The notes under the pieces: generated by a model
The model's database searches: none
Seen by the model: the letters and a program-made list of their open reading frames with translations, nothing else
Told to the model about the DNA's origin: nothing
Part shown: positions 7,859 to 55,545 of the stretch, piece by piece
Position numbering within the stretch: position 1 is the first letter of the stretch
How the letters are laid out: every line of letters starts with the position of its first letter
NCBI GenBank assembly: GCA_902362715.1
Contig: CABIXN010000004.1
Location: 273,337-337,336, forward strand
From: Lachnospiraceae bacterium
Lineage (GTDB): Bacteria > Bacillota > Clostridia > Lachnospirales > Lachnospiraceae
DNA: 64,000 nt
Direction of reading: 5' to 3'
Position numbers and translations under genes: made by a program

Positions 7859-9448
7859 TCATTCTTCAGATTTTTTATCATCTGTATCCTGTTTATTCTG
7901 ATCAGAGCCCGAATTTTCAGGCTTCTGATTTTCAGAATCCTGTTTCTCCTGTTCTTCCTTCTTCTGCTCTTCTTCTTTTTTCTGTTCTTCCTGCTTTTTA
8001 TCTGCTTCCTGCTGAGCCTTCCATTTTGAAACAGCTGCCTTTACAGTTCCCAGATCACCGCTGGCAATGGCCTTTTTAATAGCAGCGCTGGCTTCTTCAC
8101 TGGCACCGCCCAGACCTACCTCATAAATTGCAGGAGATGCGTTGTAGGTGCTCTTGTTAAATACCTCCCGGCTTTTTTCTACCCCTCCAACTTTTACGAC
8201 TTTCCAGAGCTGGGCTTTCCTTCCGGTATGGGAACTTTGAACCTTTGTGATACTGCCCAGGGCAGCACCTGATGTTTTAAACTCCGTCTTTGGCTGCGTA
8301 GTACTTAAAGTCTCACTTTCAAAGATAACCTCCCGGTCAGAATCCCTTGTCTCCTGTCCGTAAATAGTAAAATACAGCTCTCTGCCGCTTGTATATCCTT
8401 CAATATAAACAGGTGTTTTTGTATTATTTTTAAACTTCAGATTTTTATAGGTTCCCGCAATGGCCGCATCACTGGAAGGATCTACATAAGATACAATCAT
8501 AGAGTGGGCAAACCTCTCCGTAATTTCAAGCTCCGCCCGGATTACAGCATTATAAAGCGTAGTTGATACCTGGCAGACGCCGCCTCCATATGACTGCACG
8601 GTTGTTCCATTCTCATAAGAACCGGCCAGCGCATATCCATGCTCTGCATCCATAGGCGAGATCACATCATACACCGAAAATTCTTCTCCGGGGTAAATTA
8701 CACTGCCATTTATTTTTCCCGCCGCGGTCTGAATATTTTTCACCCTGCCGGACGCTGAAGAGCTGAAGTTTGTATGGTAGGTCCCCAGAACATCCTTCAC
8801 TTTCGAAAGCTCCTCTTTGGAGCCCTTAGGCTCTGCAGTGCTTACTTCTAGTTCTATCTGCGCATCGGATTTCCAGCCCTCTGCAAAATACTGATCTACA
8901 GTTTCCAATGATTTTTCTATATTTACTTCCACGCCGGCCTCACCGTCAATCACTGTAAACGCTCCGTTTTTCCTCTCAAGGCCGAAATCTTTCGCGTCCT
9001 GTCCCAGATCATCTTTATGCTCTTCTAAATATTTGGTGGTTTTTTCTTTATCAGCCTTTAAAATAACCGGAAATACTTTATCCTCGTGTTCAAGATCTTT
9101 GTTAGCTTTATATCTGGAAATAAGATTTCCTGTTTTCCCATAGTTCAGCGCATCCTCCGCCACAGTCTCATCACCCCAGACCAGCCCCAGCTCTTCAACT
9201 GTTGCCGTGATGGTGTTTTTTCCGGCTTTTAATGTAACTTCCTCATCCTGAAGCTCCTTCACATATTCTTCTACTGCTTTGGATGCCTCTTCTTCCGTCA
9301 TTCCGCTCACATCAACTTCCCCGATATGAATCCTTTGTGCAATTGTACCCGCCGAATCCTTCTCAGACTGTGCTGATACTCCTGCTGTTAAAGCAGTTAC
9401 CGCAGCGGCTGCTGCCGCAACAGCACAAATATACTTCCATCTTCTCAT
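7859..9448 (-). CDS. VanW-family surface protein with peptidoglycan-binding-like repeats
   Basis: 529 residues. An N-terminal signal/anchor (RRWKYICAVAAAAAAVTALTAG) is followed by an E/K-rich region with the PG-binding-4 type motif VSGMTEEEASKAVEEYV near 50-65. The VanW domain at about 230-350 contains NIQTAAGKINGSVIYPGEEFS, GYALAGSYENG and SYGGGVCQVSTTLYNA. A G5-like strand region follows, and the last ~50 residues are Lys/Glu/Gln/Asp low-complexity sequence, probably extracellular. VanW proteins are common in Clostridia outside vancomycin-resistance clusters, and nothing here suggests resistance. ATG 9448 with GAGAGGA upstream. Confidence 0.9.
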   Translation of the reverse strand: MRRWKYICAVAAAAAAVTALTAGVSAQSEKDSAGTIAQRIHIGEVDVSGMTEEEASKAVEEYVKELQDEEVTLKAGKNTITATVEELGLVWGDETVAEDALNYGKTGNLISRYKANKDLEHEDKVFPVILKADKEKTTKYLEEHKDDLGQDAKDFGLERKNGAFTVIDGEAGVEVNIEKSLETVDQYFAEGWKSDAQIELEVSTAEPKGSKEELSKVKDVLGTYHTNFSSSASGRVKNIQTAAGKINGSVIYPGEEFSVYDVISPMDAEHGYALAGSYENGTTVQSYGGGVCQVSTTLYNAVIRAELEITERFAHSMIVSYVDPSSDAAIAGTYKNLKFKNNTKTPVYIEGYTSGRELYFTIYGQETRDSDREVIFESETLSTTQPKTEFKTSGAALGSITKVQSSHTGRKAQLWKVVKVGGVEKSREVFNKSTYNASPAIYEVGLGGASEEASAAIKKAIASGDLGTVKAAVSKWKAQQEADKKQEEQKKEEEQKKEEQEKQDSENQKPENSGSDQNKQDTDDKKSEE

Positions 9449-51176: not shown

Positions 51177-52295
51177 TTACATTATGTATCTTTCATTTCG
51201 CTCGTGTACAATTTTAACGCTGTCTTCCCCACTCAGATAGGTGTTAGCATGAATAGTATCATGGCTCTCCACAATACAGTTCTCAATATGTGTATTATCA
51301 CCAATATATACGTCATTCAGTATAATGGAATTTTTAATCACACAGTTTTTTCCCACAAATACCTGTTTGAATAAGACAGAATTCTCAACAGTACCATTCA
51401 CAATACAGCCGCTTGCAACTAAACTGTTGTGTACATCCGCGCCGATATTGTATTTCGCTGGTGCAAGATCATCAATTTTCGAATAAACTGCTGGTTCCTG
51501 TTTAAAGAAGAAGCTGCGTACCTTAGGATCCAGAAAATCCATATTGGTTCTGTAATAGTCGTCAACCGTAGCAATGTTGCTCCAGTAGCTGTCCATTTTG
51601 TATCCATAAATACGCTTCATGTTCTTGTAACGAATTAAAATATCATTTACAAAATCAAAGCGTTCTTCTTCCGCACATTTCTCCAGCATTTCAATGAGCT
51701 GCCGTCTTCTCAGTATGTATATACCTGTGGAAATCGTATTGGAGTTGGCAACCATAGGCTTTTCCTCAAATTCCACAATTCTGGATTCTTCATTCATACG
51801 GACCACGCCAAACCGGCTGACATCTGTTCCTACCGGCATGTCCTTGCATACAATGGTAATATCCGCCTTCTTTTCAATATGAAAATCCAGAACTTTATTA
51901 TAATCTATTTTATATACACAATCTCCCCCTGCAATTATGACATATGGCTCATGGCTGCGTTTCAGAAAATCAATATTCTGATAAATAGCATCTGCCGTCC
52001 CCCGATACCAGAAGCCATTATCTGCTGTCAATGTAGGCGTAAAGACATATAAGCCGCCCTGTTTACGTCCAAAATCCCACCATTTAGAAGAGCTTAAATG
52101 CTCATTCAAAGACCGCGAATTGTACTGGGTCAGCACCGCTACTCTCTGAATACGCGAGTTGCTCATATTACTGAGGGAAAAATCTATACAGCGGTAACTT
52201 CCTCCTACAGGCATAGCCGAAATCGCACGTTTATTTGATAATTCCTGCATTTTATTGTTATTGCCGCCTGCTAAAATAATTCCAAGAGCTTTCAT
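51177..52295 (-). CDS. glgD: GlgD, glucose-1-phosphate adenylyltransferase regulatory subunit
   Basis: 372 residues. The N-terminal nucleotidyltransferase-like fold is recognisable ([32 protein letters not shown]) but degenerate compared with GlgC, and the left-handed beta-helix C-terminus is present (NSVLFKQVFVGKNCVIKNSIILNDVYIG). In Clostridia and Bacilli GlgD pairs with GlgC to form the active heterotetramer. Its start overlaps the glgC stop by one base (TAATG). Confidence 0.95.
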   Translation of the reverse strand: MKALGIILAGGNNNKMQELSNKRAISAMPVGGSYRCIDFSLSNMSNSRIQRVAVLTQYNSRSLNEHLSSSKWWDFGRKQGGLYVFTPTLTADNGFWYRGTADAIYQNIDFLKRSHEPYVIIAGGDCVYKIDYNKVLDFHIEKKADITIVCKDMPVGTDVSRFGVVRMNEESRIVEFEEKPMVANSNTISTGIYILRRRQLIEMLEKCAEEERFDFVNDILIRYKNMKRIYGYKMDSYWSNIATVDDYYRTNMDFLDPKVRSFFFKQEPAVYSKIDDLAPAKYNIGADVHNSLVASGCIVNGTVENSVLFKQVFVGKNCVIKNSIILNDVYIGDNTHIENCIVESHDTIHANTYLSGEDSVKIVHERNERYIM

Positions 52296-53566
52296 TATCT
52301 GCCACCTGCCTTAATAATATATTCTCCGCCGTCTAGTAATCCTCCGGGATAATCCTCCGGTTCTGTTACACCGGCAATGGCTGTATTCTTTCCGATCTTT
52401 ACATTGGGCGGCACAACAGAATCCTCCCCGATGGTCACCAGGCCAAAGGAATATACGGATTCTTTTAATTTATTTGGCTTCTCTTCTCCAATGCCAAGTT
52501 CACAGCCGGAACCAATCTTACAATTCTCCGCTATAATAGCTTTATCTATCATTGTATGATCCCCGATCTTGGTATCCCCCATAATAATAGAGTCATGAAC
52601 CACACAGCCTTTTCCAATAGTAACATTAGAGCCGATCACAGAGTTTTTAACTTCTCCGTATATCTCTGTTCCCTCCCCAAGGATACAACGCTCCACCTTT
52701 GCCCCGGCTGCAATATACTGAGGTGCATTTACTTCTGTACGGGTATAAATCTTCCAATACTCTTCGTAAAGATTAAACTCTGGTATCAGATCAATTAATT
52801 CCATATTGGATTCCCAATAGGACCCCAATGTACCTACATCTTTCCAGTAACCATTATATTCATATGCAAATATACGATCGCCCTTTCCATGACAATACGG
52901 AATAATATGCTTTCCGAAATCACAGTCCTCCACATCTGCCATGGCGATCAGAGCTTCTCTTAAAACCTTCCATGTAAAAATATAAATACCCATGGAAGCA
53001 AGATTACTGCTTGGATTGGCAGGCTTTTCCTCAAATTCCCTGATCCGTTTCTCCTCATCTGTCACCACAATACCAAAACGGCTGGCTTCCTCCATGGGAA
53101 CCGGCATAACAGCAAGGGTGACATCCGCCTTATTTTCTTTATGGAAATCCAGCATCACCTCATAATCCATCTTATAAATATGGTCACCCGAAAGAATCAG
53201 CACATATTCCGGATCATAGCTATCAATATAGTTCATATTCTGATAAATGGCATTTGCAGTACCAGAATACCACTCACTGCATTCACTCTTCTCATAGGGC
53301 TGAAGTATGGTAACGCCTCCATGATTACGATCTAAATCCCAGGGAATTCCTATTCCAATATGTGTATTTAACCGTAACGGCTGATACTGTGTTAATACTC
53401 CCACCGTATCAATTCCGGAATTAATACAATTGCTCAATGGGAAATCAATAATTCTATATTTACCACCAAAAGCAACTGCCGGCTTTGCAACTTTTGATGT
53501 AAGTACCCCCAATCTGCTTCCCTGTCCCCCGGCCAGAAGCATAGCTATCATTTCCTTACGGATCAT
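52295..53566 (-). CDS. glgC: Glucose-1-phosphate adenylyltransferase (ADP-glucose pyrophosphorylase)
   Basis: 423 residues from ATG 53566, with AGAGGTGA eleven bases upstream; a longer frame to 53650 adds an unrelated 28-residue stretch that runs over the promoter. [44 protein letters not shown] is the catalytic N-terminus; [11 protein letters not shown] near 115 and GDHIYKMDY follow; the C-terminus is a left-handed beta-helix. It makes ADP-glucose, the glycogen precursor. Phosphoglucomutase at 31513 and the GH13 enzyme at 21150 belong to the same carbon-storage theme. Confidence 0.96.
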
Positions 53567-53609
53567 ATTGTTCACCTCTTGTTTCTTTTCATTAAAAAAT
53601 CTCATAAAT

Positions 53610-53618
53610 ATTATAACA
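53610..53618 (-). promoter_or_regulatory. Extended -10 promoter of glgC-glgD
   Basis: TGTTATAAT on the minus strand, -10 at 53610-53615 with TG extension; no clear -35. Start near 53603 gives a short leader to ATG 53566. Confidence 0.6.
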
Positions 53619-53764
53619 CAACTTTCATAAATCGTACACATTTTTACCAATAATTTTCATTTTTTTTGTATTTTTTTGACATTTCATACAATTTCACTAT
53701 ATTTTTACAACGAATCCTCCCTTCCACATACTGTATATTATTTTATTTTCAAATCATAAATTTA

Positions 53765-53773
53765 TGGTATAAT
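53765..53773 (+). promoter_or_regulatory. Extended -10 promoter at the head of the tandem array
   Basis: TGGTATAAT on the plus strand (-10 53768-53773). Expected start near 53780, within a few bases of the first repeat unit at 53783, so the array is placed as the first transcribed sequence of the murC leader. Confidence 0.6.
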
Positions 53774-53782
53774 ATATCATAT

Positions 53783-54166
53783 CAGTAAAAAATCAAGCGG
53801 CTGTGGAACAGACATTTGATTTTTTGTTGATATGATAACGACAGAATCTTTGAGTGTCTTTAGGCACGGCAGCTGCTTTTGCAGCTGGATTCTGGAGTGC
53901 TTTTACTTTTCAGTAAAAAATCAAGCGGCTGTGGAACAGACATTTGATTTTTTGTTGATATGATAACGACAGAATCTTTGAGTGCCTTTAGGCACGGCAG
54001 CTGCTTTTGCAGCTGGATTCTGGAGTGCTTTTACTTTTCAGTAAAAAATCAAGCGCTATGAAACAGACATTTGATTTTTTGCCAGATTCTTAAGTACTTA
54101 TCGCTAATACGATAACTACAGAATCGTCAAATACTTTTCATCTAAATCTATAACAGGCAGGTATTT
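53783..54166 (+). repeat. Tandem 128-bp structured repeat units in the murC leader
   Basis: Units begin at 53783, 53911 and 54039, exactly 128 bases apart. Units 1 and 2 differ at one base (T to C in GTGYC, which keeps pairing). Unit 3 keeps the first ~47 bases and then diverges. In unit 2: hairpin AAAAAATCAA (53915-53924) with TTGATTTTTT (53944-53953), capped by CTGT/ACAG; then a three-way junction closed by CAGAATC (53970-53976) with GATTCTG (54016-54022), holding GTGCC/GGCAC (53982-53995) and CAGCTGC/GCAGCTG (53998-54015), both with four-base loops. No reading frame or protein-coding signal is present. Confidence 0.85.
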
Positions 54167-54168
54167 TT

Positions 54169-55545
54169 ATGTATGAAATAAATTTCAACTCACCAATCCA
54201 CATTCATTTTATTGGTATCGGCGGCATCAGCATGAGCGGCCTTGCCGAAATATTATTAAAAGAAAAATTCACAGTTTCCGGTTCTGATGCAAGAGAGTCT
54301 CATCTTACCAAACTGCTGGCTTTACAGGGGGCACGAATCTATATCGGACAACGGGCGGCAAATATTTCAGATGATACAGATCTCGTTGTTTATACAGCGG
54401 CCATCCATGAAGATAATCCGGAATTTGCACAGGCAGTGAAACAGGAGATTCCCATGCTGACCCGTGCCGAGCTCCTTGGTCAGATTATGAAACATTACCA
54501 TAACTCTATCGCCGTCTGCGGTACCCACGGTAAAACCACAACAACTTCAATGCTTACAGAAATTCTGCTCACTGCAGAGGCAGATCCCACTATCTCTGTA
54601 GGCGGTATGCTTTCATCAATTGGCGGGAATATCAGAGTGGGAAGTTCCGATATCTTTTTAACGGAAGCCTGCGAATACACAAACAGTTTTTTAAACTTTT
54701 ATCCAAAATACAACATCATATTAAATATAGAAGAAGATCATCTGGACTTTTTCAAAGATATTCAGGAGATCCGTCACTCTTTCCGGCAGTTTGCCGCAAA
54801 TACCGCAGAGAACGGAATTGTATTTATAAACAGCGGTATTCCGGATTATTCGGAAATTACTACGGATCTTTCCTGCCGGGTTATAACCTTTGGCCTGTCC
54901 GGTACAGAAGATTATTTTGCTTCGGATATTACTTACAATAATCATGGCTGCGCCTCATTTACTGTAAACCACAGCCAAAACACATATCCTGTTCAGATTC
55001 AGGTTCCCGGCGAACATAACGTTTCAAACGCTCTGTCTGCATTTGCCTGCGCCCTTGAGGCCGGCATCAAACCGGATAGAATCATTTTGGGGCTAAAATC
55101 CTTTGGGGGTGCCGCCAGACGTTTTGAATTTAAAGGAAAACTTGGCAGTGTCACCGTCATAGATGACTATGCACACCATCCAACCGAGATTAAAGCCACC
55201 TTATCTTCCGCAAAAAATGTAGCTCACGACCGGATTATATGTGTTTTTCAGCCTCACACATACACCCGTACCAAAGCATTCTTTCATGAATTTGCAGATG
55301 CTCTGGCCCTGGCCGACATTGTTGTACTGGCTGATATTTATGCCGCAAGGGAAACCGATACACTGGGAATTTCTTCCAGAGATCTGGCTGCCGCTGTTTT
55401 GGCCGCAGGTACAGAATGCCATTATTTTCCAAGCTTTGATGAAATAGAAAACTTTTTATTAGAAAATTCTATGAACAACGATCTGTTGATAACTATGGGT
55501 GCCGGAGATGTATATAAAATCGGCGAAAGCCTTCTGGGACTGTAA
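54169..55545 (+). CDS. murC: UDP-N-acetylmuramate--L-alanine ligase
   Basis: 458 residues. IHFIGIGGISMSGLAEILL (about 10-28) is the UDP-binding loop; the ATP P-loop is in CGTHGKTTTTSMLTEIL near 110-126; NIEEDHLDFF near 185 and DDYAHHPTEIKATL near 330 complete the Mur ligase signature. It adds the first amino acid of the peptidoglycan stem. ATG 54169 with AGGCAGG upstream. With murA elsewhere in the window it belongs to the same pathway but a separate transcription unit, read from behind the 128-bp repeat array. Confidence 0.97.
   Translation: MYEINFNSPIHIHFIGIGGISMSGLAEILLKEKFTVSGSDARESHLTKLLALQGARIYIGQRAANISDDTDLVVYTAAIHEDNPEFAQAVKQEIPMLTRAELLGQIMKHYHNSIAVCGTHGKTTTTSMLTEILLTAEADPTISVGGMLSSIGGNIRVGSSDIFLTEACEYTNSFLNFYPKYNIILNIEEDHLDFFKDIQEIRHSFRQFAANTAENGIVFINSGIPDYSEITTDLSCRVITFGLSGTEDYFASDITYNNHGCASFTVNHSQNTYPVQIQVPGEHNVSNALSAFACALEAGIKPDRIILGLKSFGGAARRFEFKGKLGSVTVIDDYAHHPTEIKATLSSAKNVAHDRIICVFQPHTYTRTKAFFHEFADALALADIVVLADIYAARETDTLGISSRDLAAAVLAAGTECHYFPSFDEIENFLLENSMNNDLLITMGAGDVYKIGESLLGL

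Follow-up and report, generated by a model that had tools for sequence, protein, structure and literature searches.

The tandem array in front of murC in the window (the whole stretch of Lachnospiraceae DNA that was analysed, 64,000 nucleotides) is best read, with a probability that we put at about 60%, as a 2.4-unit copy of a dispersed, non-autonomous, non-coding hairpin repeat that would spread by being recognised in its folded form and would spare the promoter beside which it settles. The family to which it belongs has a covarying structure, occurs in multiple copies distributed as sense leaders of genes, and is present in one genome and absent from two relatives at one orthologous site. 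The array is not a murC-specific RNA and is not part of murC; the family is a new one of a known kind, the small interspersed palindromic repeats, for which its promoter-anchored sense placement is unusual.

The features of the locus are given below in window coordinates, where R1 denotes a covariance model of P1 plus AACGA (74 positions) built from 13 family members including the window.

52295..53566, minus strand: divergent neighbour gene from the ORF list, presumably a glgC-like gene
53746..53773, plus strand: murC promoter, a -35-like TTTTCA and an extended -10 (TG at 53765-53766, TATAAT at 53768-53773)
53772-53846, plus strand: R1 covariance match of unit 1, 82.5 bits
53775..53837, plus strand: P1 hairpin of unit 1, outer arms 53775-53784 / 53828-53837, triloop GGA at 53805-53807
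ATCAAGCG/CATTTGAT, plus strand: inner conserved stem of P1 in unit 1, from the family consensus and covariation
53782..53909, plus strand: unit 1, from tandem repeat comparison
53838..53898, plus strand: P2 of unit 1, closed by ACGA ... GAGT (tandem G.A), with an AGAATC/GATTCT stem
53854-53867 and 53870-53887, plus strand: sub-hairpins of P2 in unit 1, from the predicted fold
53910..54037, plus strand: unit 2, R1 match at 53900-53974 (66.3 bits), outer 5' arm unlike that of unit 1
54038..54128, plus strand: diverged unit 3, with a P1 core hairpin (54038-54081) and a weakly similar remnant; R1 match at 54028-54101 (32.1 bits)
54150..54168, plus strand: end of the murC leader with an SD-like AGGCAGG, by eye much like the leaders of relatives that lack the element (in the first 20 of 80 loci)
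54169..55545, plus strand: murC, an ORF of 458 aa, whose product we take to be UDP-N-acetylmuramate--alanine ligase

The array is the top tandem repeat of the window (score 572, against 64 for the runner-up), and its anatomy agreed with the preliminary description in most respects. The two 128-bp units, at 53782-53909 and at 53910-54037, agree at 127 of 128 positions, the single difference being T53857 versus C53985, which changes GUGUC to GUGCC and thereby a G-U to a G-C pair in GUGUC/GGCAC, while the diverged third unit has its first ~44 nt (54038-54081) in common with them and a weak nhmmer alignment beyond 54081 as far as 54128. Upstream stands the extended -10 promoter (TTTTCA-16-TATAAT with TG; -10 at 53768-53773), from whose position a start at unit 1, near 53780, would be expected. 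Units 1 and 2 are each predicted to form a long hairpin (P1) followed by a three-way junction (P2), with z = -3.4 and -4.3; in unit 3 the predicted fold keeps the first hairpin and differs in the remaining stems, and the 401-nt leader as a whole has a predicted folding z of -7.3. The earlier label 'terminator-like' for the first hairpin did not hold: its U tract lies inside the stem and there were 0 terminator-like sites in 53600-54300 (0.4 expected), so that it is simply a hairpin with A and U strands. Other short tandem repeats in the window lie at 699-752 (24-nt period) and 7938-8013 (18-nt period). An assembly artefact, which the 99% identity of units 1 and 2 might suggest, is hardly credible as the source of their exact duplication, given that the units differ at one position and that arrays of two to five copies of the family occur in other assemblies.

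Comparison with 80 other murC loci showed that a minus-strand gene is the upstream neighbour of murC in 70 of 77 scorable relatives, with a median spacer of 255 nt, and that the best TATAAT-like site within 150 nt upstream lies a median of 59 nt before the murC ATG (70 loci). The units gave no blastn match at any of the 80 loci, and R1 (E<=1) detected the element at one of them (L079 2766-2837, 53.9 bits), where it again lies directly behind a TATAAT. In the window, inspection by eye suggests that the -10 and the SD-proximal part of the leader are native and that the array lies between them; it extends the murC 5' leader to about 390 nt, compared with roughly 50 nt in relatives. At three of the loci (L005, L008 and L013) the murC promoter spacer holds other palindromic or GC-rich repeats that look unrelated, and this spacer may therefore be a common landing place for repeats.

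A first DNA search of 397 Lachnospiraceae genomes gave ten with E<=0.001, one of which (L099) was matched over a short stretch only and looks like chance. With R1 at E<=0.001, homologues with conserved pairing were found in 60 of the 397 sampled genomes, which is a lower bound because 12 candidates per genome were scored under strict filters; rescoring of eight element-rich genomes with 150 candidates each yielded 12-49 matches per genome (E<=0.01), some of which may be opposite-strand echoes of the same palindrome. A phylum-wide sample gave matches in two of 398 genomes (G198 and G279), both already among the matching family genomes. There was no element match in IMG/VR viral contigs searched with exact patterns or in plasmids and phages searched by blastn, and no Rfam 15 family overlay the element at the gathering threshold, the best overlapping match in relaxed scans being AaHKsRNA41 in L094 (33.2 bits; cut-off 97). 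In the window, a T-box leader (RF00230, 37409-37610, minus strand, 111.9 bits) is the only sequence to reach the gathering threshold of an Rfam family, and a Clostridiales-1 RNA (RF01699, 119.9 bits; L091 1617-1784, plus strand) adjoins one element copy elsewhere. No description of the repeat family was found in the open-access literature searched.

In being short, multi-copy, non-coding and dispersed, the element resembles a MITE-like small interspersed repeat of the BOX/RUP type. The genome with 41 matches (G107) carries many near-identical copies at unrelated places, and several arrays, that of the window with its unit 3 among them, break off within a further unit, which is what tandem expansion and loss would produce. 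Among the readings offered in the preliminary description, that of a recently expanded structured repeat is the one borne out.

The 5' part of the family consensus (drawn by eye) consists of TATA-ATGTAAC, a variable arm, GGAAGGAAA, [A/T]CAAGCG and an apical hairpin, and the 3' part of CATTTG[A/T]TTTCACC, a variable arm, GTTAACGA, P2 and GAGT. P1 is an imperfect hairpin with a conserved bulge, the inner strands CAAGCG and CATTTG likewise being conserved, and ACGA/GAGT closes the stem of P2. Over 144 distinct rows, 93.5% of the pair cells were paired (77.3% in column shuffles and 39-45% in slid controls), the covariation score was 0.416 (0.141 shuffled, at most 0.085 slid) and double-sided changes occurred at 19 of 24 pairs, although this alignment leans towards structure because it was fitted to R1 and retains two palindromic echoes. 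These reverse-strand echoes (in L174 and L145) were dropped from the array counts and kept in the 149-row alignment from which the 144 distinct rows derive. An independent MAFFT alignment of 13 members showed double changes at 13 of the 24 predicted pairs. A strand-specific G.U pair in P1 stays G.U in 140 of 144 rows, and 120 of 164 copies had the CGA/GAG closing of P2 (tandem G.A), where shuffling of the downstream sequence gave a mean of 6.25 (15 of 179 copies had no ACGA-type motif and were left out); the next pair outside this closing covaries (A-T 76, G-C 10 and C-G 4 of 94 distinct). Reading P2 as a kink-turn was dropped because there is no 3-nt bulge between the stem and the tandem GA, and a likeness to integron attC sites (AAC/GTT cores) was dropped because the positions vary between subfamilies.

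Placement was examined in 103 arrays from eight genomes chosen for many matches, with a crude ORF caller; five arrays had no downstream gene, and three were left out of the promoter count because a contig end was too close. In 88 of 98 arrays the element and the gene downstream share a strand, and in co-directional spacers 49 arrays are sense and 5 antisense (p=4e-10), with 33 of the 98 arrays in divergent and 5 in convergent spacers. Three arrays of G350 (L243, L245 and L246) that are antisense to both neighbours are the main exceptions to the sense rule. A -10 box with at most one mismatch precedes 75 of 100 leading copies, compared with 20% in shuffles, and these boxes fall within an 11-position range and mostly at one of two offsets; an extended TG was seen at 46 leading copies, and a -35 (at most one mismatch) at 14 of the 75 that bear a -10, as opposed to 2% in controls. 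The box is not confined to leading copies, since 14 of 44 inner tandem units also have a -10-like box at the usual offset. Where the upstream gene is on the same strand, 6 of 14 leading copies lacking a -10 lie between -20 and +5 nt relative to its stop codon, against 7 of 42 with a -10. Two operon copies in G107 (L211 and L218) both begin with AGCTGTAG, which at the same time supplies the last Lys-Leu codons of the upstream gene and its stop.

Tandem small RNAs had also been proposed, and genes for them with their own promoter would be in keeping with the start of three quarters of the leading copies behind a -10 box, the 128-nt monomer of the window and the weak promoter-like matches (9/12) within its units (53809-53836 and 53937-53964, plus strand). 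Against this, the median distance from the end of P2 to the start of the sense gene is 70 nt (59 arrays measured), no run of five or more T occurs near the 3' end of P2 in any of 67 arrays (those of the 103 with a well-scoring P2), and the -10-like box is present in only the minority of inner units given above. Because the stem has no U-tract and a sense gene begins so soon behind it, small RNA genes are very unlikely.

The downstream genes have no function in common. A Pfam scan of all 88 same-strand downstream proteins returned 162 families, the commonest of which (ABC_tran and LytTR) occur in three proteins, and 30 hand-picked proteins had 30 different best Pfam families, with targets including methionine aminopeptidase-like, ZapA, Asp23, MatE, MreB, homoserine succinyltransferase and DHFR proteins as well as RecD2, acetate kinase, FtsK, Tyr-tRNA synthetase, Fur and tRNA pseudouridine synthase. 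Among 106 downstream proteins from 25 genomes, eight cross-genome pairs were similar at E<=1e-15, which by a rough estimate is roughly chance level; about four of these are orthologue-like, including murC and a deoB-like gene, the murC pair being inflated because murC was deliberately searched. A regulon was considered and rejected on the gene functions and the lack of shared targets. The preliminary description had also suggested that the leader could control cell-wall synthesis as a riboswitch or attenuator, and a tandem structured leader does stand before murC, as does a copy before the murC of L079. Yet the element was found at that single locus among the 80 other murC loci, its targets are unrelated with no conserved association with one pathway across the 88 downstream proteins, and neither a terminator-like site in the leader, a U-tract at P2 nor an Rfam family at threshold was detected, so that the cell-wall reading is unsupported and highly improbable.

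Since the targets are unrelated, P2 lacks a U-tract and an operon site is empty in two relatives, the array is a dispersed small repeat that occupies sense 5' leaders. That site is the L218 copy, where the element lies in a 120-nt spacer between a stop codon and the start of an ACT-domain gene; the corresponding spacers in G415 and G416 are 11 and 40 nt long and element-free, and comparison of the filled and empty sites revealed no clear target duplication. No promoter-type empty site was found for L165, L166 or L223: the counterpart of L166 in G415 has a different downstream gene, and that of L223 in G811 was matched in its upstream part only. Other repeats were seen as well: a second multi-copy repeat of ~70 nt, part of the downstream flank of L208 in G107, matches many places in G415 (for example in L302-L304 and L306-L311), and the 3' flanks of L157, L163 and L166 (G107) share a palindrome around ATAATGTCGCTAAGACATTAT and a second -10-like box after the element.

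The strongest rival to the mobile hairpin repeat is a selected cis-acting leader RNA, in which P1 and P2 at the 5' end would protect unrelated mRNAs from 5' decay or insulate their translation, and which would spread because it is useful. The sense placement in leaders, the strand-specific G.U pair kept through the alignment, the tandem-GA closing of P2 and the missing U-tract there, from which readthrough would be expected, all accord with such an RNA, as does the enrichment of BOX, RUP and SPRITE, by contrast, between convergent genes, as stated in PMC3049150. On the other side, 337 of the 397 family genomes gave no match (12 candidates scored per genome), orthologous genes manage without the element, and both the outer arm of P1 and the loops, considered next, count against it. 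A useful leader RNA is possible but doubtful.

The +1 is expected about seven bases past the -10, so that the outermost pairs of P1 involve DNA that would stay untranscribed from the very -10 that they follow. Among copies with a promoter, these outer-arm pairs between the -10 and the expected +1 are nevertheless intact in 360 of 374 cells, with many compensatory types; the figure is 103 of 124 for leading copies that lack a promoter and 117 of 184 for inner tandem units, in which the unit border often truncates the arm. The same pattern could arise without selection if imperfect palindromes are corrected by template switching. The loops are of the DNA GNA type and not GNRA or UUCG: C(GNA)G caps 32 of 56 distinct P1 apices (9 of 65 distinct P1 interiors lacked a simple hairpin and were left out) and, within the 70 nt that follow P1, 74 of 178 hairpins. 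When each 5-bp stem of the P2 region is counted once, it caps 23 of 72 unique stems, GNA making up 23 of the 30 C(NNN)G stems. In controls, C(GNA)G was found in 2 of 94 terminator-like hairpins and 0 of 298 murC-locus hairpins with stems >=7, an enrichment with p=6e-8 and 1e-30, the stem criteria differing between the sets.

Triloops of the GNA type can also form in RNA. ViennaRNA gave one energy to all twelve triloops tried within each of two parameter sets, and these uniform values favour neither RNA nor DNA hairpins. According to PMC4686876, loops of the GNA and GNNA type on G-C stems make 'extraordinarily stable' DNA mini-hairpins, with a Tm of 78 C for GCGAAGC. The kept outer-arm pairs and the C(GNA)G loops are together a hint in favour of folded single-stranded DNA. 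The window copy itself has the loops T(GGA)A, TTTA and TTTT, so that C(GNA)G is a trend of the family and no proof for this copy.

Orientation might instead be set by replication, lagging-strand transposition of single-stranded DNA giving a sense bias that mirrors the leading-strand bias of genes. The leading strand was estimated from GC skew at four-fold sites in 40 windows of 14-20 kb holding 49 arrays, picked mainly for divergent and antisense arrays, and 11 rows from G107 were left out post hoc because their skew was weak or contradictory. Outside G107, all 27 arrays in leading orientation were sense, but 11 of 38 arrays were in lagging orientation and 7 of these 11 were still sense, where about 25% would be expected under the assumed gene bias (p=0.008); the four antisense arrays were all in lagging orientation. 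Divergent arrays lean towards the leading strand (18 leading versus 7 lagging, p=0.04), and on contig C5 of G163 the ten matches listed all lie on one strand. Replication may therefore contribute to the sense bias, although it leaves the whole pattern, and in particular the anchoring at the -10, unexplained, and as the determinant of orientation it is unlikely.

On the preferred reading of a mobile hairpin repeat, the element would spread as a small non-autonomous element whose strand is recognised folded, probably as single-stranded DNA. It would land in sense orientation beside promoters or in operon spacers, which would place most leading copies directly behind a -10 box and some close behind a stop codon within operons, and landed copies could then duplicate in tandem. 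With the promoter spared, the element would become the structured start of the host mRNA, and we propose that survival of the promoter is what makes it tolerable; any influence on the expression of murC, through 5'-end protection or changed translation, would be a putative by-product. A specific version, in which a mobile single-stranded DNA hairpin inserts into the transcription bubble of open promoters by means of an enzyme other than the Pfam Y1 transposase, is rather improbable. Here the folded strand, often C(GNA)G-capped, would be attached immediately behind the -10 hexamer to the non-template strand that is exposed there, which would account for the -10 offset and the sense orientation as well as for an intact promoter and the covarying arm that lies between -10 and +1.

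Several observations count against a mobile element. No transposase partner emerged: the Y1 transposase family PF01797 showed no association with the element (three of eight element-rich and five of eight R1-match-free genomes, in draft assemblies) and was absent from the draft assembly of G107, which carries 41 element matches. No target duplication is proven, and the only clean empty site is operonic and not behind a -10. The strong sense bias and the few convergent sites are unlike a neutral parasite, the lean of divergent elements towards the leading strand points to a possible share of replication in the bias, some inner units too have a -10-like box in front of them, and the window copy lacks the C(GNA)G loops that would be its DNA signature.

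Small bacterial repeats are often regarded as parasites that settle behind genes. This repeat settles ahead of genes, mostly with the same orientation and at a similar distance from the -10, and the genes concerned are as different as murC and those for Tyr-tRNA synthetase and acetate kinase. A mobile repeat with this placement would be one that targets promoters and leaves them intact; a selected one would be a leader module of general use to many unrelated genes of gut bacteria.

Known systems resemble the element in part. The put antitermination RNAs of phage HK022 form two adjacent stem-loops at the start of the transcript, a similar arrangement, whereas the Lachnospiraceae element is chromosomal, multi-copy and in front of unrelated genes. 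Non-autonomous derivatives of IS200/IS605 likewise have ends that are folded single-stranded hairpins, in which the transposase contacts unpaired bases (PMC8266576); they differ in that no parent element or transposase came to light here in an unsystematic inspection of the copies' surroundings. REP elements with their TnpA-REP/RAYT, as described in PMC8266576 and PMC3733652, are also strand-specific hairpins in many copies, some with a conserved bulge, and many REP families have very short loops like those of our element. REPs are, however, 20-50 nt long and preceded by GTAG (or tagged CGTC), whereas the element is a two-domain structure of ~100-130 nt with no GTAG foot (the commonest hairpin-foot tetranucleotides of 100 leading copies were GTAA 29, ATAA 20 and ATGA 18, with GTAG outside the 12 commonest), and REPs lie mostly downstream of genes according to PMC3733652, the element upstream. 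Further parallels are BOX, RUP and SPRITE of Streptococcus pneumoniae (PMC3049150). BOX and RUP have TIRs and TSDs, while the Lachnospiraceae family is sense-oriented and tied to a -10, with no clear TSD, and convergent spacers hold 5 of 98 of its arrays as opposed to 16 of 86 for BOX (Table 1 of that paper). Notwithstanding these differences, all three are likewise small dispersed intergenic repeats, typically under 200 bp, RNA-foldable and lineage-restricted, and BOX is modular with a variable tandem number, as is the Lachnospiraceae family.
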